Below are positions 27,831-35,323 of a stretch of 50,316 nt of DNA, one piece after another; positions within the stretch are counted from its first letter, which is position 1, and the number at the start of each line of letters is the position of its first letter. Made by a program: the position numbers and the translations under genes. The DNA comes from Acidobacteriota bacterium (lineage in GTDB: Bacteria > Acidobacteriota > Vicinamibacteria > Vicinamibacterales > UBA2999): assembly GCA_016190945.1 (NCBI GenBank), contig JACPPO010000025.1:1-50316 (forward strand), in the 5' to 3' direction. The notes under the pieces are model-generated. The model was not told the DNA's origin. It did not search any database and saw only the letters and a list, made by a program, of their open reading frames with translations.

Positions 27831-29468
27831 TCACGCCTGCGCGAGGTGCGCGGATCCGCGCTCGCAGACAAAGCTTGCGGCGCGGGTTTCCGCCGCGGAG
27901 CGCTCCAGCACGCTCGGCACGAAATACCACTCTCCCCGCATCCGCGTCCTCGTGACGTCAATCAGTATGTAGCCGCGGCTCTCACCCTCCAGGAACTTGA
28001 GGTGCGGCAGCAGCGCACGCAGGAGTACGGAGCGCTCGCGCAGGGCAGGATCCGTGAACAGGGGAGGCGAGCTGATGGCCGGCGCGAGGAGCTCCACGGC
28101 GAGCGAGCCCTCGCCGGTGGCTCCCCGATAGCCGTTCCAGGGGTTGCGCGGCACGTCGAACGCCCACGAGCTGTGCAGATCGCCGCTGAGTATCACCACG
28201 TCCTGCACGCGCTCGGCCGCGAGGAAATCAAGAATACGGTCGCGCGGCGCCTGATATCCCTCCCACGTATCCGAGGTGAGCACCGGCCGTCCTGGCGGAA
28301 CGACGCGCGAGAACATGATCTGCTGCCCCAGCACCCGCCAGAGGGTCGCGGCACGTTGAGACGACCGGAGCTGGTTGAACAGCCAGGCTTCCTGCGTGGC
28401 GCCCAGGATGGCGCGCTTCGGATCCACCAGCGCCTCAAGATCGGTCGTCGGAACCTGCCGATCGCGCAGCGCGCGTGTGTCGAGCATGACGAGATCCGCG
28501 AGCGTGCCGAACCGGAAACTGCGGTACAGGCGGAAGCCCGGACCCGGAGATTCGCGGATCGGCATCCATTCGAGGTAGGCGCGATAGGCCGCCGCCTTGC
28601 GCGTCGCCCAGTCGCCCTCGCCCTGGTCGGGGTTGTGATTGACGGCCCCGCCCGCCCACGCGTCGTTGGCCAGCTCGTGATCGTCCCAGACGACGATAAA
28701 GGGATGCCGGCGGTGGGCTTCCTGCAGGTCGGGATCCGTGCGATAGGTGGCGTAGCGGATCCGGTAGTCGCTGAGGGTGACCGCTTCCCGCCGGGGCTCC
28801 GGGATCCGAAGCAGGCCGCTGCCTTCGCCGTATACGCCGTTCTCGAACTCGTAGATATAGTCGCCGACGTGCACGATGGCGTCGAGGTCTTCGCGGTTAG
28901 CGAGGCAGCGGTAGACGTTGAAGAACCCTGCCGGGTAGTTGGAGCAGCAGACAGAGGCGAGGCGAACGCGGTCGACGGCGCCTGCCGGCAGCGTCCTGGT
29001 TCGACCGACCGGCGACCGCTCGCCGCCTGTCTCGAAGGCGTAATAGTACGGCCGTCCCGGCCGCAGGCCTCCGGCGTCGACCTTGACGGTGAAATCGCGC
29101 TCGCCGGTCGTGCGCACCGTGCCTTGCGCGACTGCTTGCGCCAGCGCCGGATCGCGGGCGATGCGCCACCGCACATCGACGACCGGCATGGACGCGCCGC
29201 CATCGGCCGGCGTCACGCGCGTCCAGAGAATGACGCGATCGGCGAGCGGGTCGCCGCTGGCCACGCCGTGCGGAAACACCGCGGACGCGGCGCTGTCGGG
29301 CTCCTGCTCGCGCACTAGCGCCGGCCAGCCGCCTTCGCTAGGTCTGGTCGCGATGCGACCCGACAGGCCAGTACTGGCTAGGCGATCCGCAAGAGCGGAC
29401 CGCCAGGGCGAGCCAAGCGCAGCGGTCGCAGCGGCACTCCAAAGGAACTGGCGGCGCGTGAGAGACAC
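27831..29468 (-). CDS. phoD: Alkaline phosphatase D family protein (PhoD), Tat signal
   Basis: MSLTRRQFLWSAAATAALGSP; FPHGVASGDPLADRVILWTRVTP; VHVGDYIYEF; VVWDDHELANDAW; VILSGDLHSSWAFD. Confidence 0.93.
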   Translation of the reverse strand: MSLTRRQFLWSAAATAALGSPWRSALADRLASTGLSGRIATRPSEGGWPALVREQEPDSAASAVFPHGVASGDPLADRVILWTRVTPADGGASMPVVDVRWRIARDPALAQAVAQGTVRTTGERDFTVKVDAGGLRPGRPYYYAFETGGERSPVGRTRTLPAGAVDRVRLASVCCSNYPAGFFNVYRCLANREDLDAIVHVGDYIYEFENGVYGEGSGLLRIPEPRREAVTLSDYRIRYATYRTDPDLQEAHRRHPFIVVWDDHELANDAWAGGAVNHNPDQGEGDWATRKAAAYRAYLEWMPIRESPGPGFRLYRSFRFGTLADLVMLDTRALRDRQVPTTDLEALVDPKRAILGATQEAWLFNQLRSSQRAATLWRVLGQQIMFSRVVPPGRPVLTSDTWEGYQAPRDRILDFLAAERVQDVVILSGDLHSSWAFDVPRNPWNGYRGATGEGSLAVELLAPAISSPPLFTDPALRERSVLLRALLPHLKFLEGESRGYILIDVTRTRMRGEWYFVPSVLERSAAETRAASFVCERGSAHLAQA

Positions 29469-29506: not shown

Positions 29507-29514
29507 GCCGCAGC
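29507..29514. repeat. Left target-site duplication GCCGCAGC
   Basis: Identical to 31646-31653, abutting the TIRs. Confidence 0.85.
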
Positions 29515-29537
29515 GGTAGTGTCTCAGTTTGCCTGAG

Positions 29538-29651
29538 TCACAGGAACCGGCTGCTCAACCTCTTCCCATCATCCAGGACCAGTCGGACCGCCTGGCTGCG
29601 GAACTCCTCCTCAAATTGCCGGCGGGGGCGCCGGCGTGTCGTCTTGGGCAT
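29538..29651 (-). pseudogene. N-terminal remnant of transposase OrfA (HTH_Tnp_1, IS3/IS66-type)
   Basis: Manual translation MPKTTRRRPRRQFEEEFRSQAVRLVLDDGKRLSSRFL*; the canonical EEFxxxAVRLVLxxG start is cut short just inside the left TIR. Confidence 0.8.
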
Positions 29652-29703
29652 TCGGGTTACAATTAGTTCGATCAAGCTGCTAATATGCGCGTCTGGAGGC
29701 GAG

Positions 29704-29982
29704 GTGGCCGAGACGAAGACGAAGATTCAGGTACCGAATGTTGGCCTTGTAGATGCAGTCGAGGTCGAAATCACTGAATCCAGCGAAAGATGGACCGATG
29801 TTAAGCTCGCCGACGGAACAACTATACGTACAAAACCGGTGATTTTAACCGTGTTCAGGGTTGATGGCCATTACGACCAAGATGGCAATCCCATCTATCA
29901 GATTAAGGCCAACCAAGTGATGACCGCAACTGCGCCCGATCATTTGAAAAAGGGTGCACAGTCGTCCGACAAGACACACTGA
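29704..29982 (+). CDS. Transposon cargo gene 1: small uncharacterised protein
   Basis: VAETKTKIQVPNVGLVDAVEVEITESSERWTDVKLADGTTIRTKPVILTVFRVDGHYDQDGNPIYQIKANQVMTATAPDHLKK; GGAGGCGAG RBS, GTG start. Confidence 0.8.
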   Translation: MAETKTKIQVPNVGLVDAVEVEITESSERWTDVKLADGTTIRTKPVILTVFRVDGHYDQDGNPIYQIKANQVMTATAPDHLKKGAQSSDKTH

Positions 29983-29995
29983 AGGAACGGCGACC

Positions 29996-30466
29996 ATGCG
30001 CCAGACAGTTACCACGCACAAAGAAAGACCATCGTCAATCGTGGTGGTTCAGCAAGCCTACGACGTCTTCTTCTCTCAACAGCCGCGTGATGTCACTGCT
30101 GATTACCCAGGCGATGAGGCCATCGGTCTGATGCTCCCAGAGCTTGGAGTCCCAGTCAGCGATCCCGATGTCGAGGCGTGGATTAAGTTTCAGACTCTCT
30201 ACGCTCATTGGCAGGTAGAACGCGGCGCTATGTCATCGATCACTGAAATGGTTCTGTGTCCATCGTACCAATCCATCCTTGGGATGGGCCCGATTGCGAT
30301 CCCATTTATGCTTGCCGAACTTGAATCGAGCCTAGACGAGCCGGATCAGTGGTTCTGGGCGTTGAAAGCCATTACTGGTATCGATCCTGTTCAGGAACAG
30401 GATCGTGGAGATTTTGTCGCCATGGCCAAGGCATGGCTGCTCTGGGCGCAATCAGAGTATGCCTAG
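29996..30466 (+). CDS. Transposon cargo gene 2: uncharacterised helical protein
   Basis: MRQTVTTHKERPSSIVVVQQAYDVFF...PSYQSILGMGPIAIPFMLAELESSLDEPDQWFWALKAITGIDPVQEQDRGDFVAMAKAWLLWAQ; resembles a recurring YQxIxGMGPxAIPxxLxELE...WFWALxAITGxxPV family. Confidence 0.85.
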   Translation: MRQTVTTHKERPSSIVVVQQAYDVFFSQQPRDVTADYPGDEAIGLMLPELGVPVSDPDVEAWIKFQTLYAHWQVERGAMSSITEMVLCPSYQSILGMGPIAIPFMLAELESSLDEPDQWFWALKAITGIDPVQEQDRGDFVAMAKAWLLWAQSEYA

Positions 30467-30911
30467 TAGTTGGCCGCAACACGAACTGCCAAATCTCACC
30501 AACCAAAACTGTTCGGTCGCAAGCCCGATGACACGTCGTTACAACTGCATCGCATGGGCGGCGGGTAACGACACTCGGAACTGGTGGCCAGATCAGATGG
30601 GAGTTGGTTACTGGCCTGACGGAGTTCCGAGAGAGGTAACGACCGCAGCGTTCCTTGCCGCATACGGCACTCTTGGATTTAAGTTGAGCTTTGATGGCAG
30701 TTTGCAGCAGGGGATTCAAAAGCTTGCGCTCTACGGCAAGGGGCCAACTGGTTCTGAGGTCCCTACACACGCGGCGTTGCAAACAGCGTCAGGAGAATGG
30801 ACCAGCAAACTCGGACCATTTGAGGACATCGTGCATACGACTGCGGATGCGGTCAATGGTCCTGTTTACGGGACAGTCATTTGCTATTTGGAGCGCCCTC
30901 GGCCAGCCTGA
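30459..30911 (+). CDS. Transposon cargo gene 3: DUF7689-like protein, possible papain/NlpC-like fold
   Basis: MPSSWPQHELPNLTNQNCSVASPMTRRYNCIAWAAGNDTRNWWPDQMGVGYWPDGVPREVTTAAFLAAYGTLGF...VPTHAALQTASGEWTSKLGPFEDIVHTTADAVNGPVYGTVICYLERP; 8-nt overlap with gene 2. Confidence 0.82.
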   Translation: MPSSWPQHELPNLTNQNCSVASPMTRRYNCIAWAAGNDTRNWWPDQMGVGYWPDGVPREVTTAAFLAAYGTLGFKLSFDGSLQQGIQKLALYGKGPTGSEVPTHAALQTASGEWTSKLGPFEDIVHTTADAVNGPVYGTVICYLERPRPA

Positions 30912-31144
30912 CGCCGCTTCGAACCCCAGCGTGCTTTCGCGGCGTTCGACGCGATTTCGGTTTTTCTCTTCGCAGATAGTTTCCGGGCCCTCGCCGCGCC
31001 GCCGCGACGCCCCAATTCAACGGCGGCGGCGTTTCTGGTCCATTCGCGACCTTCAACGATCTCGCCCGTGGCGATCTTCATGACCGTCACGGCGTTCGAG
31101 ATAACATCGGCCGGGCGCTTCTGGCCCTTGGGTCCTTTCGGCAT
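30884..31144 (-). CDS. Transposon cargo gene 4: small basic protein
   Basis: MPKGPKGQKRPADVISNAVTVMKIATGEIVEGREWTRNAAAVELGRRGGAARARKLSAKRKTEIASNAAKARWG; recognisable widespread small-protein family. Confidence 0.75.
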   Translation of the reverse strand: MPKGPKGQKRPADVISNAVTVMKIATGEIVEGREWTRNAAAVELGRRGGAARARKLSAKRKTEIASNAAKARWGSKRRQAGRGRSK

Positions 31145-31181
31145 AGCTTATCGCTAAGCATCGCACGGAGATGGGCAGCCA

Positions 31182-31382
31182 ATGGCACGATACATCAGAC
31201 GGTTTGGCGAGGTCCAGTGGGAGATTATCATTCGGAGGCTGGACAGTGATTTAGACGTTCGGGCCCAAAGACCCCCGGCCGCTGAACCACAGGAGGCCCT
31301 ACCTAAACTCGCAAACGAGGAAGAATTGCTGCGCTCTATTTGTAGGCATCTTGAGAGCACCGAAGGGCCGATGAGCGACTGA
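31182..31382 (+). CDS. Transposon cargo gene 5: hypothetical
   Basis: 66 aa ORF in the low-GC interior, no family recognised. Confidence 0.4.
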   Translation: MARYIRRFGEVQWEIIIRRLDSDLDVRAQRPPAAEPQEALPKLANEEELLRSICRHLESTEGPMSD

Positions 31383-31409
31383 AACCTCTGTTAAAGAAGA
31401 GGTGACCCA

Positions 31410-31619
31410 ATGGGCGATCTTTGTGACCGCTGGCCGTACCCGTGTGATTCCGTCCCACTGCCTTTCAGTGCGCCAATTAACCTCGTAATCTTCCTCTTAT
31501 GGCTGGTGGGGTGTTACCAGCTCGTCAACGCACCACGTGAATCGCGGCTATCGGGGCCATGGATGACGCTTTTCCGTATTGGCCCTATAGTGCAACTTGG
31601 CGCATGTCTATTCAGATGA
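31410..31619 (+). CDS. Transposon cargo gene 6: small membrane protein
   Basis: GAGGTG RBS; INLVIFLLWLVGCYQLVN hydrophobic segment. Confidence 0.45.
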   Translation: MGDLCDRWPYPCDSVPLPFSAPINLVIFLLWLVGCYQLVNAPRESRLSGPWMTLFRIGPIVQLGACLFR

Positions 31620-31645
31620 CCGCGAGTTCAAACTGAGACACTACC

Positions 31646-31653
31646 GCCGCAGC
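31646..31653. repeat. Right target-site duplication GCCGCAGC
   Basis: Identical to 29507-29514. Confidence 0.85.
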
Positions 31654-33547: not shown

Positions 33548-34483
33548 ATGAGTATCAGGGCATCGATCGGTGCGGCGGTCGCTGCGGCGTTCCTCGCCGG
33601 CACCCCGGTGAGCGCTCAGAGCAAGTTGAACGTCGTGACGTCGACCGAAGATCTCGCCTCGATCGCACGCGAAGTCGGCGGCGACAAAGTGGCTGTCGTG
33701 GCCCTTGCGAAGGGCTATCAGGATCCGCATTTCGTCGATGCGAAGCCGAGCTTCATTCTGACCATGAACCGTGCGGATCTCTACATTGCGGTCGGCCGTG
33801 AGCTCGAGATTGGCTGGCTGCCGCCGCTCGTGAACAGCAGCCGCAACGCCAAGATTCAGCCGGGTGCCAGGGGGTACCTCGACGCCTCGCTGACCGTCCA
33901 CATTCTCGAGATTCCAACCGGCCAGATCACCCGTGCCATGGGCGATGTGCACCCGCTTGGCAATCCCCATTACTGGCTCGAGCCAGGCAACGGCCGCCTG
34001 ATCGCTCAGGCCGTTCGCAACAAACTCAGCGAGATCTCCCCTGCCGACAACGCCCTTTTTGCGCGGCGTTACGACGATTTCGACAGGCGTCTCGCAGCGG
34101 CCGAAAAACGCTGGGATGCCGCCATGGCGCCGTACAAGGGCACGAAGCTTGTCACGTATCACCGTTCGTGGCCGAACTTCATGGATCGCTTCGGACTCCA
34201 GGTCATAGGTTACGTCGAGCCGAAGCCGGGCATTCCGCCGTCGCCATCACACACGCTCGATCTCATCGAAGAGATGAAGCGCGGCGGTATTAAGCTCATC
34301 GTCGTCGAGCCGTATTTCAGCCTGAAGACGCCCCAGGCCATCGCCAATCAGATCCCCGGCGGCAAGGTGCTCGTTCTGGCGCCGTCCGTTGGTGGTGTGA
34401 AGGAAGTGGCCGATTACATTCAGTTGTTCGAGTACAACGTCAAGCTGCTGGCCGGTGCGCTGAAGCAGGTGACGGGAAAGTAA
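33548..34483 (+). CDS. Metal ABC transporter substrate-binding protein (ZnuA/TroA type)
   Basis: NVVTSTEDLASIAREVGGDKVAVVALAKGYQDPHFVDAKPSFILTMNRADLYIAVGRELEIGWLP...GNPHYWLEPGNGRLIAQ. Confidence 0.92.
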   Translation: MSIRASIGAAVAAAFLAGTPVSAQSKLNVVTSTEDLASIAREVGGDKVAVVALAKGYQDPHFVDAKPSFILTMNRADLYIAVGRELEIGWLPPLVNSSRNAKIQPGARGYLDASLTVHILEIPTGQITRAMGDVHPLGNPHYWLEPGNGRLIAQAVRNKLSEISPADNALFARRYDDFDRRLAAAEKRWDAAMAPYKGTKLVTYHRSWPNFMDRFGLQVIGYVEPKPGIPPSPSHTLDLIEEMKRGGIKLIVVEPYFSLKTPQAIANQIPGGKVLVLAPSVGGVKEVADYIQLFEYNVKLLAGALKQVTGK

Positions 34484-34489
34484 AGCGAC

Positions 34490-35323
34490 GTGGACTGGAC
34501 GATCCTTCAGTTCCTCGCCCCTGCGATCGTCGCCAGCCTGATCATCGCCGGCATTCACGCGTATCTCGGCTTGCACGTCGTCGAGCGGGGTGTCATCTTC
34601 GTCGACCTCTCGCTCGCGCAGATCGCGTCGCTCGGGGCTGCCATTGCGGTGTGGCAGGGCTACGACGCGCACGCTCCATCTGTTTACTGGATGAGCCTGG
34701 GGTTCACGCTTATTGGTGCGGTGATCTTCGCCGTGATCAAAGGCCAGAAAGCCCGCATTCCGCAGGAAGCGATCATCGGCATTTCGTACGCGGTCGCCTC
34801 GGCGGCGGTGATTCTCACCCTCAGCAAGGCGACAGGCGAGGCGGAGCATCTTCGGGACATGCTCGTCGGCAACATCCTCTCGGTGCAGTGGTCTGAGGTG
34901 TGGTTGACCGGCGCGATCTATCTTCTAATCGGGCTCTTTCATTACGTGTTCAGGAAGCGGTTCCTCGAAATCTCCATGGACGCCCGCGCGGCGGCGGCCA
35001 GGGGCGTTTCCGTCAGGTTCTGGGACTTCCTCTTTTATGCGTCGTTCGGCTTCGTCGTCACGCGTTCGGTGGCGATCGCCGGAGTGCTGCTGGTCTTCTG
35101 TTACCTGATCGTGCCGTCGGTCGGTGGCATGCTGTTCTCCGGGCGCATCGGTCCCAGGCTGGCGATAGGGTGGGTGATGGGCGCGGTCGTCTCGATGCTC
35201 GGCATGTACTTCTCCGTCCTGTTCGATCTGCCGACCGGGGCGACGATCGTCTGCACATTTGGCCTCGTGCTTGTTCTGATGGCGGCGGTCCGGCCGCTGC
35301 TGTTACGAAAGGTTCACAACTAG
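34490..35323 (+). CDS. Metal ABC transporter permease (ZnuB type)
   Basis: GIHAYLGLHVVERGVIFVDLSLAQIASLGAAIA...FVVTRSVAIAGVLLVFCYLIVPS. Confidence 0.92.
   Translation: MDWTILQFLAPAIVASLIIAGIHAYLGLHVVERGVIFVDLSLAQIASLGAAIAVWQGYDAHAPSVYWMSLGFTLIGAVIFAVIKGQKARIPQEAIIGISYAVASAAVILTLSKATGEAEHLRDMLVGNILSVQWSEVWLTGAIYLLIGLFHYVFRKRFLEISMDARAAAARGVSVRFWDFLFYASFGFVVTRSVAIAGVLLVFCYLIVPSVGGMLFSGRIGPRLAIGWVMGAVVSMLGMYFSVLFDLPTGATIVCTFGLVLVLMAAVRPLLLRKVHN

Follow-up and report, generated by a model that had tools for sequence, protein, structure and literature searches.

Gene organization of the locus

The window, by which we mean the whole 50,316-nt stretch analysed here, makes up contig 156 in a draft assembly of 158 contigs (1.96 Mb, 78% complete); the closest named relatives that the searches gave belong to the Acidobacteriota. 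The analysis was based on sequence, on gene neighbourhood and, for two proteins, on structure models. Mechanical gene calling gave three co-directional genes on the plus strand: P1 (29704-29982, 92 aa), which starts with GTG after a GGAGG; P2 (29996-30466, 156 aa); and P3 (30459-30911, 150 aa). P1 and P2 are spaced by 13 nt and the reading frames of P2 and P3 share 8 nt. A previous sequence-only reading had listed the same three ORFs, gap and overlap, and all of them were found with exactly these coordinates. P1 belongs to a family of exchangeable head or accessory genes (alignments A4/A5), P2 is the predicted antitoxin, and P3, a member of Pfam DUF7689 (PF24738), is the predicted toxin.

The genes lie in a mobile element. 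On one side of it there is a PhoD-type phosphatase-like gene (27831-29468) and on the other side a metal ABC uptake-like cluster (33548-35323), both named by reading only.

The IS1-type element

The element has 2,131 bp (29515-31645) and is bordered by perfect 17-bp terminal inverted repeats (TIRs). The left TIR, GGTAGTGTCTCAGTTTG, lies at 29515-29531 on the plus strand and was recognised by an inverted-repeat search and closer reading, and the right one is its perfect inverted arm on the minus strand (31629-31645). Directly outside stands a perfect 8-bp target site duplication (TSD), GCCGCAGC, as a direct repeat at 29507-29514 and, identically, at 31646-31653. This is the single perfect 17-bp inverted pair with a perfect outer 8-bp direct repeat in the 50-kb window, for arms 0.2-10 kb apart. 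The earlier statement that the genes sit inside a transposon is hereby confirmed and sharpened to defined ends.

Besides P1, P2 and P3 the element contains the truncated start of an IS3-type OrfA (29545-29651, minus strand, 35 aa, MPKTTRRRPRRQFEEEFRSQAVRLVLDDGK...), a remnant with DNA matches in relatives and with HTH_Tnp_1 at E 0.008, below the cut-off. A convergent ORF of 86 aa (MPKGPKGQKRPADVISNAV..., 30884-31144, minus strand) follows P3, as it also does in the G317 and G028 loci, and two further plus-strand ORFs of 66 aa (31182-31382) and 69 aa (31410-31619) have no Pfam match and are of uncertain coding status. Transposase is absent from the element of the window, which is non-autonomous.

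The 15-bp core of the TIR occurred 11 times in 59 related genomes, against 0 times for the reversed control pattern, and in two further genera it lies next to P2-P3. Genome G317, from another genus of the same family, has a complete copy (L187:12203-15480) flanked by the TSD GTCCAGGG; its cargo comprises an IS1-type transposase (DDE_Tnp_IS1 at 24.8 bits, barely over the cut-off of 24.1), a cluster-C head, P2, P3 and the convergent small gene (MPKGPKGQKRPADVI...) as in the window. In G028, a third genus, one repeat end adjoins P1-P2-P3; the second end was not found, and at that side are the contig end and an IS21-type-looking element (by eye). Genome G408 has the same element type with the TSD ACTCCGGT and different cargo (L191:7603-10823, G408:C167). 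By eye, this last element shows an IS1-type-looking transposase and a DUF3800-like cargo protein. TIRs together with a target duplication of 8-9 bp are the marks of IS1-type elements; both are present in the window, and TSD-flanked copies are present in G317 and G408. The cassette is thus carried as a passenger by an IS1-type element moving among genera of one family.

Pairing and distribution of P2 and P3

Scanning one genome per species for DUF7689 gave 413 relatives; 80 of these were retained and, together with six viral contigs, which also carry the P2-P3 pair, made up 86 loci. In all of them (86/86, viral and genome collections) a P2 homologue stands directly upstream of P3 on the same strand, and in 54 of the 75 measured loci the end of P2 runs past the start of P3 by 1-60 nt. 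The sequence-only reading had named proteins 2 and 3 as recurring neighbours and had proposed a check of neighbourhood conservation; this result bears the recurrence out. P3 sequences on the tree come from 13 phyla, with groups partly mixed in a poorly resolved tree. The small co-directional pair is kept as a unit across distant lineages, as is characteristic of type II toxin-antitoxin (TA) modules.

Distribution within the phylum is patchy: DUF7689 was carried by 16 of 396 genomes and an independent P2 profile found 14, every strong P2 match in these genomes adjoining a P3. Copies can be multiple in one genome, as in G259 with three P2-P3 pairs, and transposon-borne. Tblastn of P3 against plasmid and phage records gave no match.

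P3, a DUF7689 protein

P3 matched Pfam DUF7689 with 122.5 bits (cut-off 22.6) over domain positions 2-117 of 118, in agreement with the earlier assignment of gene 3 as DUF7689-like, and had no match in NCBIfam or PADLOC and no PDB sequence relatives. The motifs quoted before, YNC30IAWAAG, PTH104AAL and WTS116K117LG...ED123I, are present, and 79 sequences all agree at S22, Y28, N29, C30, W52, P53, K88, H104, W114, S116, K117, D123, H126, Y137 and G138.

The AlphaFold model of P3, which had been proposed as a check, is confident (pLDDT 95.1, pTM 0.89). In it C30 begins helix 30-34, H104 lies within strand 101-108 and D123 begins strand 123-126; this is the residue order of clan CA (Cys at a helix start, His in a strand, then Asp/Asn or an equivalent), with all three invariant. 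Foldseek matches of this model to the PDB were all weak (best E 0.036, TM about 0.4 or less), and the best-ranked ones are mostly papain-like: a deubiquitinase, phytochelatin synthase, two CDI toxins, which are papain-like, NlpC/P60 and USP14. In the viral library an unnamed protein was best (E 1.1e-3, TM 0.5), with NlpC/P60 lower down. Comparison of profiles with NlpC/P60 domains from relatives gave an hhalign probability of 0.25 percent, no better than unrelated controls, and since it is not significant we do not claim NlpC membership. The papain/NlpC-like Cys-His-Asp site proposed earlier is plausible, as C30, H104 and D123 are invariant and the weak fold matches are mostly papain-like, but the NlpC/P60 profile comparison did not support it. 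We hold it more likely than not that P3 is a papain-like cysteine enzyme.

A distant DUF7689-like protein (L016:1432-1995, G257:C9) shares the C, H and SKxG positions and has Fic- and Xre-looking neighbours. A search with this protein as a bridge to NlpC-like families found nothing.

DUF7689-like domains also form the C-terminal tip of two RHS proteins, in G346 and G084, which is where polymorphic toxins carry their toxic tips, and there retain C30, H104, Q108, W114, S116, K117 and G119 or close equivalents. The G084 protein (L164:2657-16978, G084:C5) has about 4,770 aa and the G346 protein (L163:3-2057, G346:C43) at least 685 aa. After the latter comes a gene that is ankyrin-repeat-like by reading, possibly for an immunity protein.

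P3 and P2 could on this ground be, instead of a TA module, the stand-alone toxin/immunity cassette of a polymorphic (RHS/CDI) system, an orphan kept for recombination onto secreted carriers. The RHS tips would agree with such an origin; so would the three weak P2-like repeats in a G378 protein, reminiscent of polyimmunity proteins, and there are known immunity proteins that consist of HEAT repeats or of ankyrin repeats (PMC3482391). However, P3 is free-standing without a carrier and has its partner upstream in 86/86 loci, the P2 core bears antitoxin heads, and the head genes are common to ParE, PIN, PemK and zeta cassettes, so we regard this origin as unlikely. The G378 protein itself (L162:2841-4109, G378:C8) has 422 aa and no DUF7689 partner, and from its sequence it looks like a polyimmunity protein or a relative of P2. 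A DUF2026 identity for it (E 3e-4, below the cut-off) led nowhere.

P2, the predicted antitoxin

P2 consists of a variable N-terminus (about residues 1-55), modelled with low confidence, and a conserved helical core of about 100 C-terminal residues. It had nothing significant in Pfam or NCBIfam and no PADLOC match, and neither a PDB sequence search nor a fold search gave relatives. The P2 of the window has no recognisable DNA-binding or regulatory domain. In P1-type loci its N-terminus often carries the motif (S)IVxxQxAYxxF, a helix in the low-confidence part of the model that could be a putative docking site for P1.

In relatives, a known antitoxin domain can stand before the same core. Two Nostoc genomes have the P2 core fused in frame behind DUF433 (E 1.7e-21 and 2.6e-22); DUF433/COG2442 has been predicted, and is catalogued, as an antitoxin family (PMC2701414; PMC4963859). 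A group of six similar sequences has a Phd/YefM-like N-terminus, for which three were scanned and one matched (E 1.7e-4, below the cut-off), and one viral contig has sigma-70 region 2 (E 1.3e-10) in frame before the core (L028:9100-9999). These fused N-termini are found in loci without recognised head genes, mostly cyanobacterial. P2 cores sharing 81-88% identity also stand behind different heads, as is usual where antitoxins swap heads. An antitoxin with a regulatory domain plus a toxin-specific region is seen in these relatives, and in the window P1 may substitute for the regulatory domain.

The toxin gene stands first in some toxin-antitoxin operons. By such an order P2 would be the toxin and P3 its neutraliser, but the antitoxin heads sit on P2, and it is P3 that has invariant residues of catalytic type and forms RHS tips; this reversal is very improbable.

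Exchangeable head genes

The sequence-only reading described a three-gene module. Its P2-P3 pair holds in all 86 loci, but gene 1 as a fixed part does not, and P1 is an exchangeable head. By simple profiles, which set the head classes, 43 of 87 loci have a head gene of its own in front of P2 (P1 family 20, TIGR04255 14, cluster C 7, FDYIKS-type 2), and about half of the 87 loci are without any of these four recognised heads.

When P1-family and TIGR04255 genes were searched independently of DUF7689, they were found to lead three-gene cassettes whose last genes encode ParE/RelE (E 2.9e-9), PIN (1.7e-11) or PemK/MazF (5.8e-19). On plasmid CP063527 a shared head leads a cassette ending in an annotated zeta toxin, and a HicA-like family, named by eye and without a Pfam match, is headed by both P1 and TIGR04255. 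DUF7689 therefore stands where toxins stand, since the same heads lead ParE/RelE, PIN, PemK/MazF and zeta cassettes. The TIGR04255 genes of acidobacterial loci (L126-L145) often head cassettes in which the middle gene varies and the last one is toxin-like. Last genes noted there were PIN, PemK, HicA-like and HEPN-looking ones. Plasmid searches found TIGR04255 in four records and FDYIKS in one unannotated record, and no record with the P1 and cluster C heads.

This position also bears on whether P3 might be a peptidase with a regulatory role and P2 its target, as with ImmA and ImmR, the module being a switch and not a toxin system. The papain-like guess for P3 would suit a switch, and so would the regulatory domains joined to the P2 core, among them sigma-70 region 2 in the viral contig, but DUF7689 fills the place of ParE, PIN, PemK or zeta in same-head cassettes and forms RHS tips, and we hold a switch to be quite improbable.

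P1 had nothing significant in Pfam, NCBIfam or PADLOC and no PDB sequence relative, and sequence searches linked it neither to a recognisable fold nor to a protein of known function. Neither P1 nor TIGR04255 had a significant Pfam or PDB sequence match to a SecB-like chaperone; the latter is labelled only 'sporadTIGR04255' in NCBIfam. Matches of two head families to AbiEi were weak (E 0.003-0.009) and are not relied on. By analogy, both a DNA-binding partner like omega and a chaperone like that of TAC systems are conceivable for P1.

A more specific form of the TA explanation, not an exclusive alternative to it, is a three-part phage-defence system like CmdTAC, in which P1 (or TIGR04255) would be a phage sensor or chaperone and infection would free P3. 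It would fit the three-part layout, the patchy distribution, heads that adjoin type I restriction-looking genes in two loci (L157, L158), a head near a multiubiquitin/ThiF cluster on a plasmid, and the N-terminal helix of P2 as a possible P1 docking site. PADLOC, however, had no match for P1-P3 and marginal ones only for related heads, and P1 is without a SecB-like or other recognisable domain. We consider this form possible though rather doubtful.

Toxin-antitoxin reading and proposed mechanism

We conclude the order head, antitoxin, toxin because of the fusions of P2, the heads shared with cassettes of known toxins and the DUF7689 tips of RHS proteins. A TA or defence function had been suggested for the mobilised and coupled pair; the same three observations strongly favour its TA side, and PADLOC found no defence family in P1-P3. 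P1-P2-P3 would be a type II-like TA cassette on a transposase-less IS1-type transposon, with DUF7689 most likely as a papain-like toxin, and we give this reading a probability of about 0.8.

The toxin P3 would most likely work as a cysteine enzyme of papain-like type, be it a peptidase, a deamidase or a transglutaminase, with an active site of C30 and H104 completed by S116/K117 or D123. The conserved C-terminal helical core of P2 would bind and block it. Because the P3 start overlaps the end of P2, translating P2 first may keep the antitoxin in excess. P1 might act in trans in the way of the fused N-terminal domains (DUF433, Phd) of cyanobacterial relatives, and could regulate the operon or stabilise the N-terminus of P2.

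Comparison with known systems

The cassette is similar to type II TA systems with modular antitoxins (Phd/YefM, DUF433/COG2442) in its small, overlapping, co-directional pair with the antitoxin first, in the swappable N-terminal regulatory domain joined to a toxin-specific C-terminal part, and in being patchy and mobile. It is different in that DUF7689 and the P2 core are not among the families named in the open papers searched, and that in P2-P3 loci an upstream gene of its own often supplies the regulatory part.

Antitoxin and toxin are likewise accompanied by a third protein in omega-epsilon-zeta, PaaR-PaaA-ParE and SecB-type TAC systems including CmdTAC. Like P1-P2-P3, omega-epsilon-zeta and PaaR-PaaA-ParE have the head gene first. 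However, none of the heads (P1 family, TIGR04255, cluster C) resembled a known regulator or SecB in our searches, and the heads here are common to unrelated toxins. PanA/NetFlax hyperpromiscuous antitoxins are comparable in that several toxins draw on one set of antitoxin-side building blocks; here the head genes are the shared parts, whereas the P2 core keeps to one toxin family.

Papain-like polymorphic toxins (Tox-PL1, Cpe1/Cpi1 and the CdiA-CT of C. rodentium) have in common with P3 the order NC...H...D in a small single-domain enzyme, the occurrence at RHS tips and an adjoining partner protein. In Tox-PL1 the motif order is NC-H-DxQ (PMC3482391), and Cpe1 demonstrates that a papain-like protease can act as an antibacterial toxin (PMC12136450). 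P3 differs from them in that it has no significant sequence or profile match and weak fold similarity, and in that its partner is upstream and bears antitoxin heads.

Significance of the cassette

Bacteria of 13 or more phyla have the P2-P3 pair, and the open literature searched gave no description of the pair, nor of a papain-like TA toxin. Neither DUF7689 nor TIGR04255 is named in the open-access literature searched. We conclude that the module is probably of a known kind, type II TA, and that its new part would be DUF7689 as an undescribed toxin family.

More tentatively, at somewhat less than an even chance, DUF7689 could be a new class of TA toxin, papain-like and disabling an essential host protein, and the interchangeable heads (P1 family, TIGR04255 and cluster C), serving many unrelated antitoxin-toxin pairs, could be a general undescribed layer of control or phage sensing.

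With this reading DUF7689, an orphan Pfam family that occurs in hundreds of species (one scan gave 413 relatives), gains a testable function. The reading also suggests a TA toxin with a fold not usual in such modules. The shared heads, TIGR04255 and the P1 family, offer a possible handle for finding further unrecognised TA cassettes.
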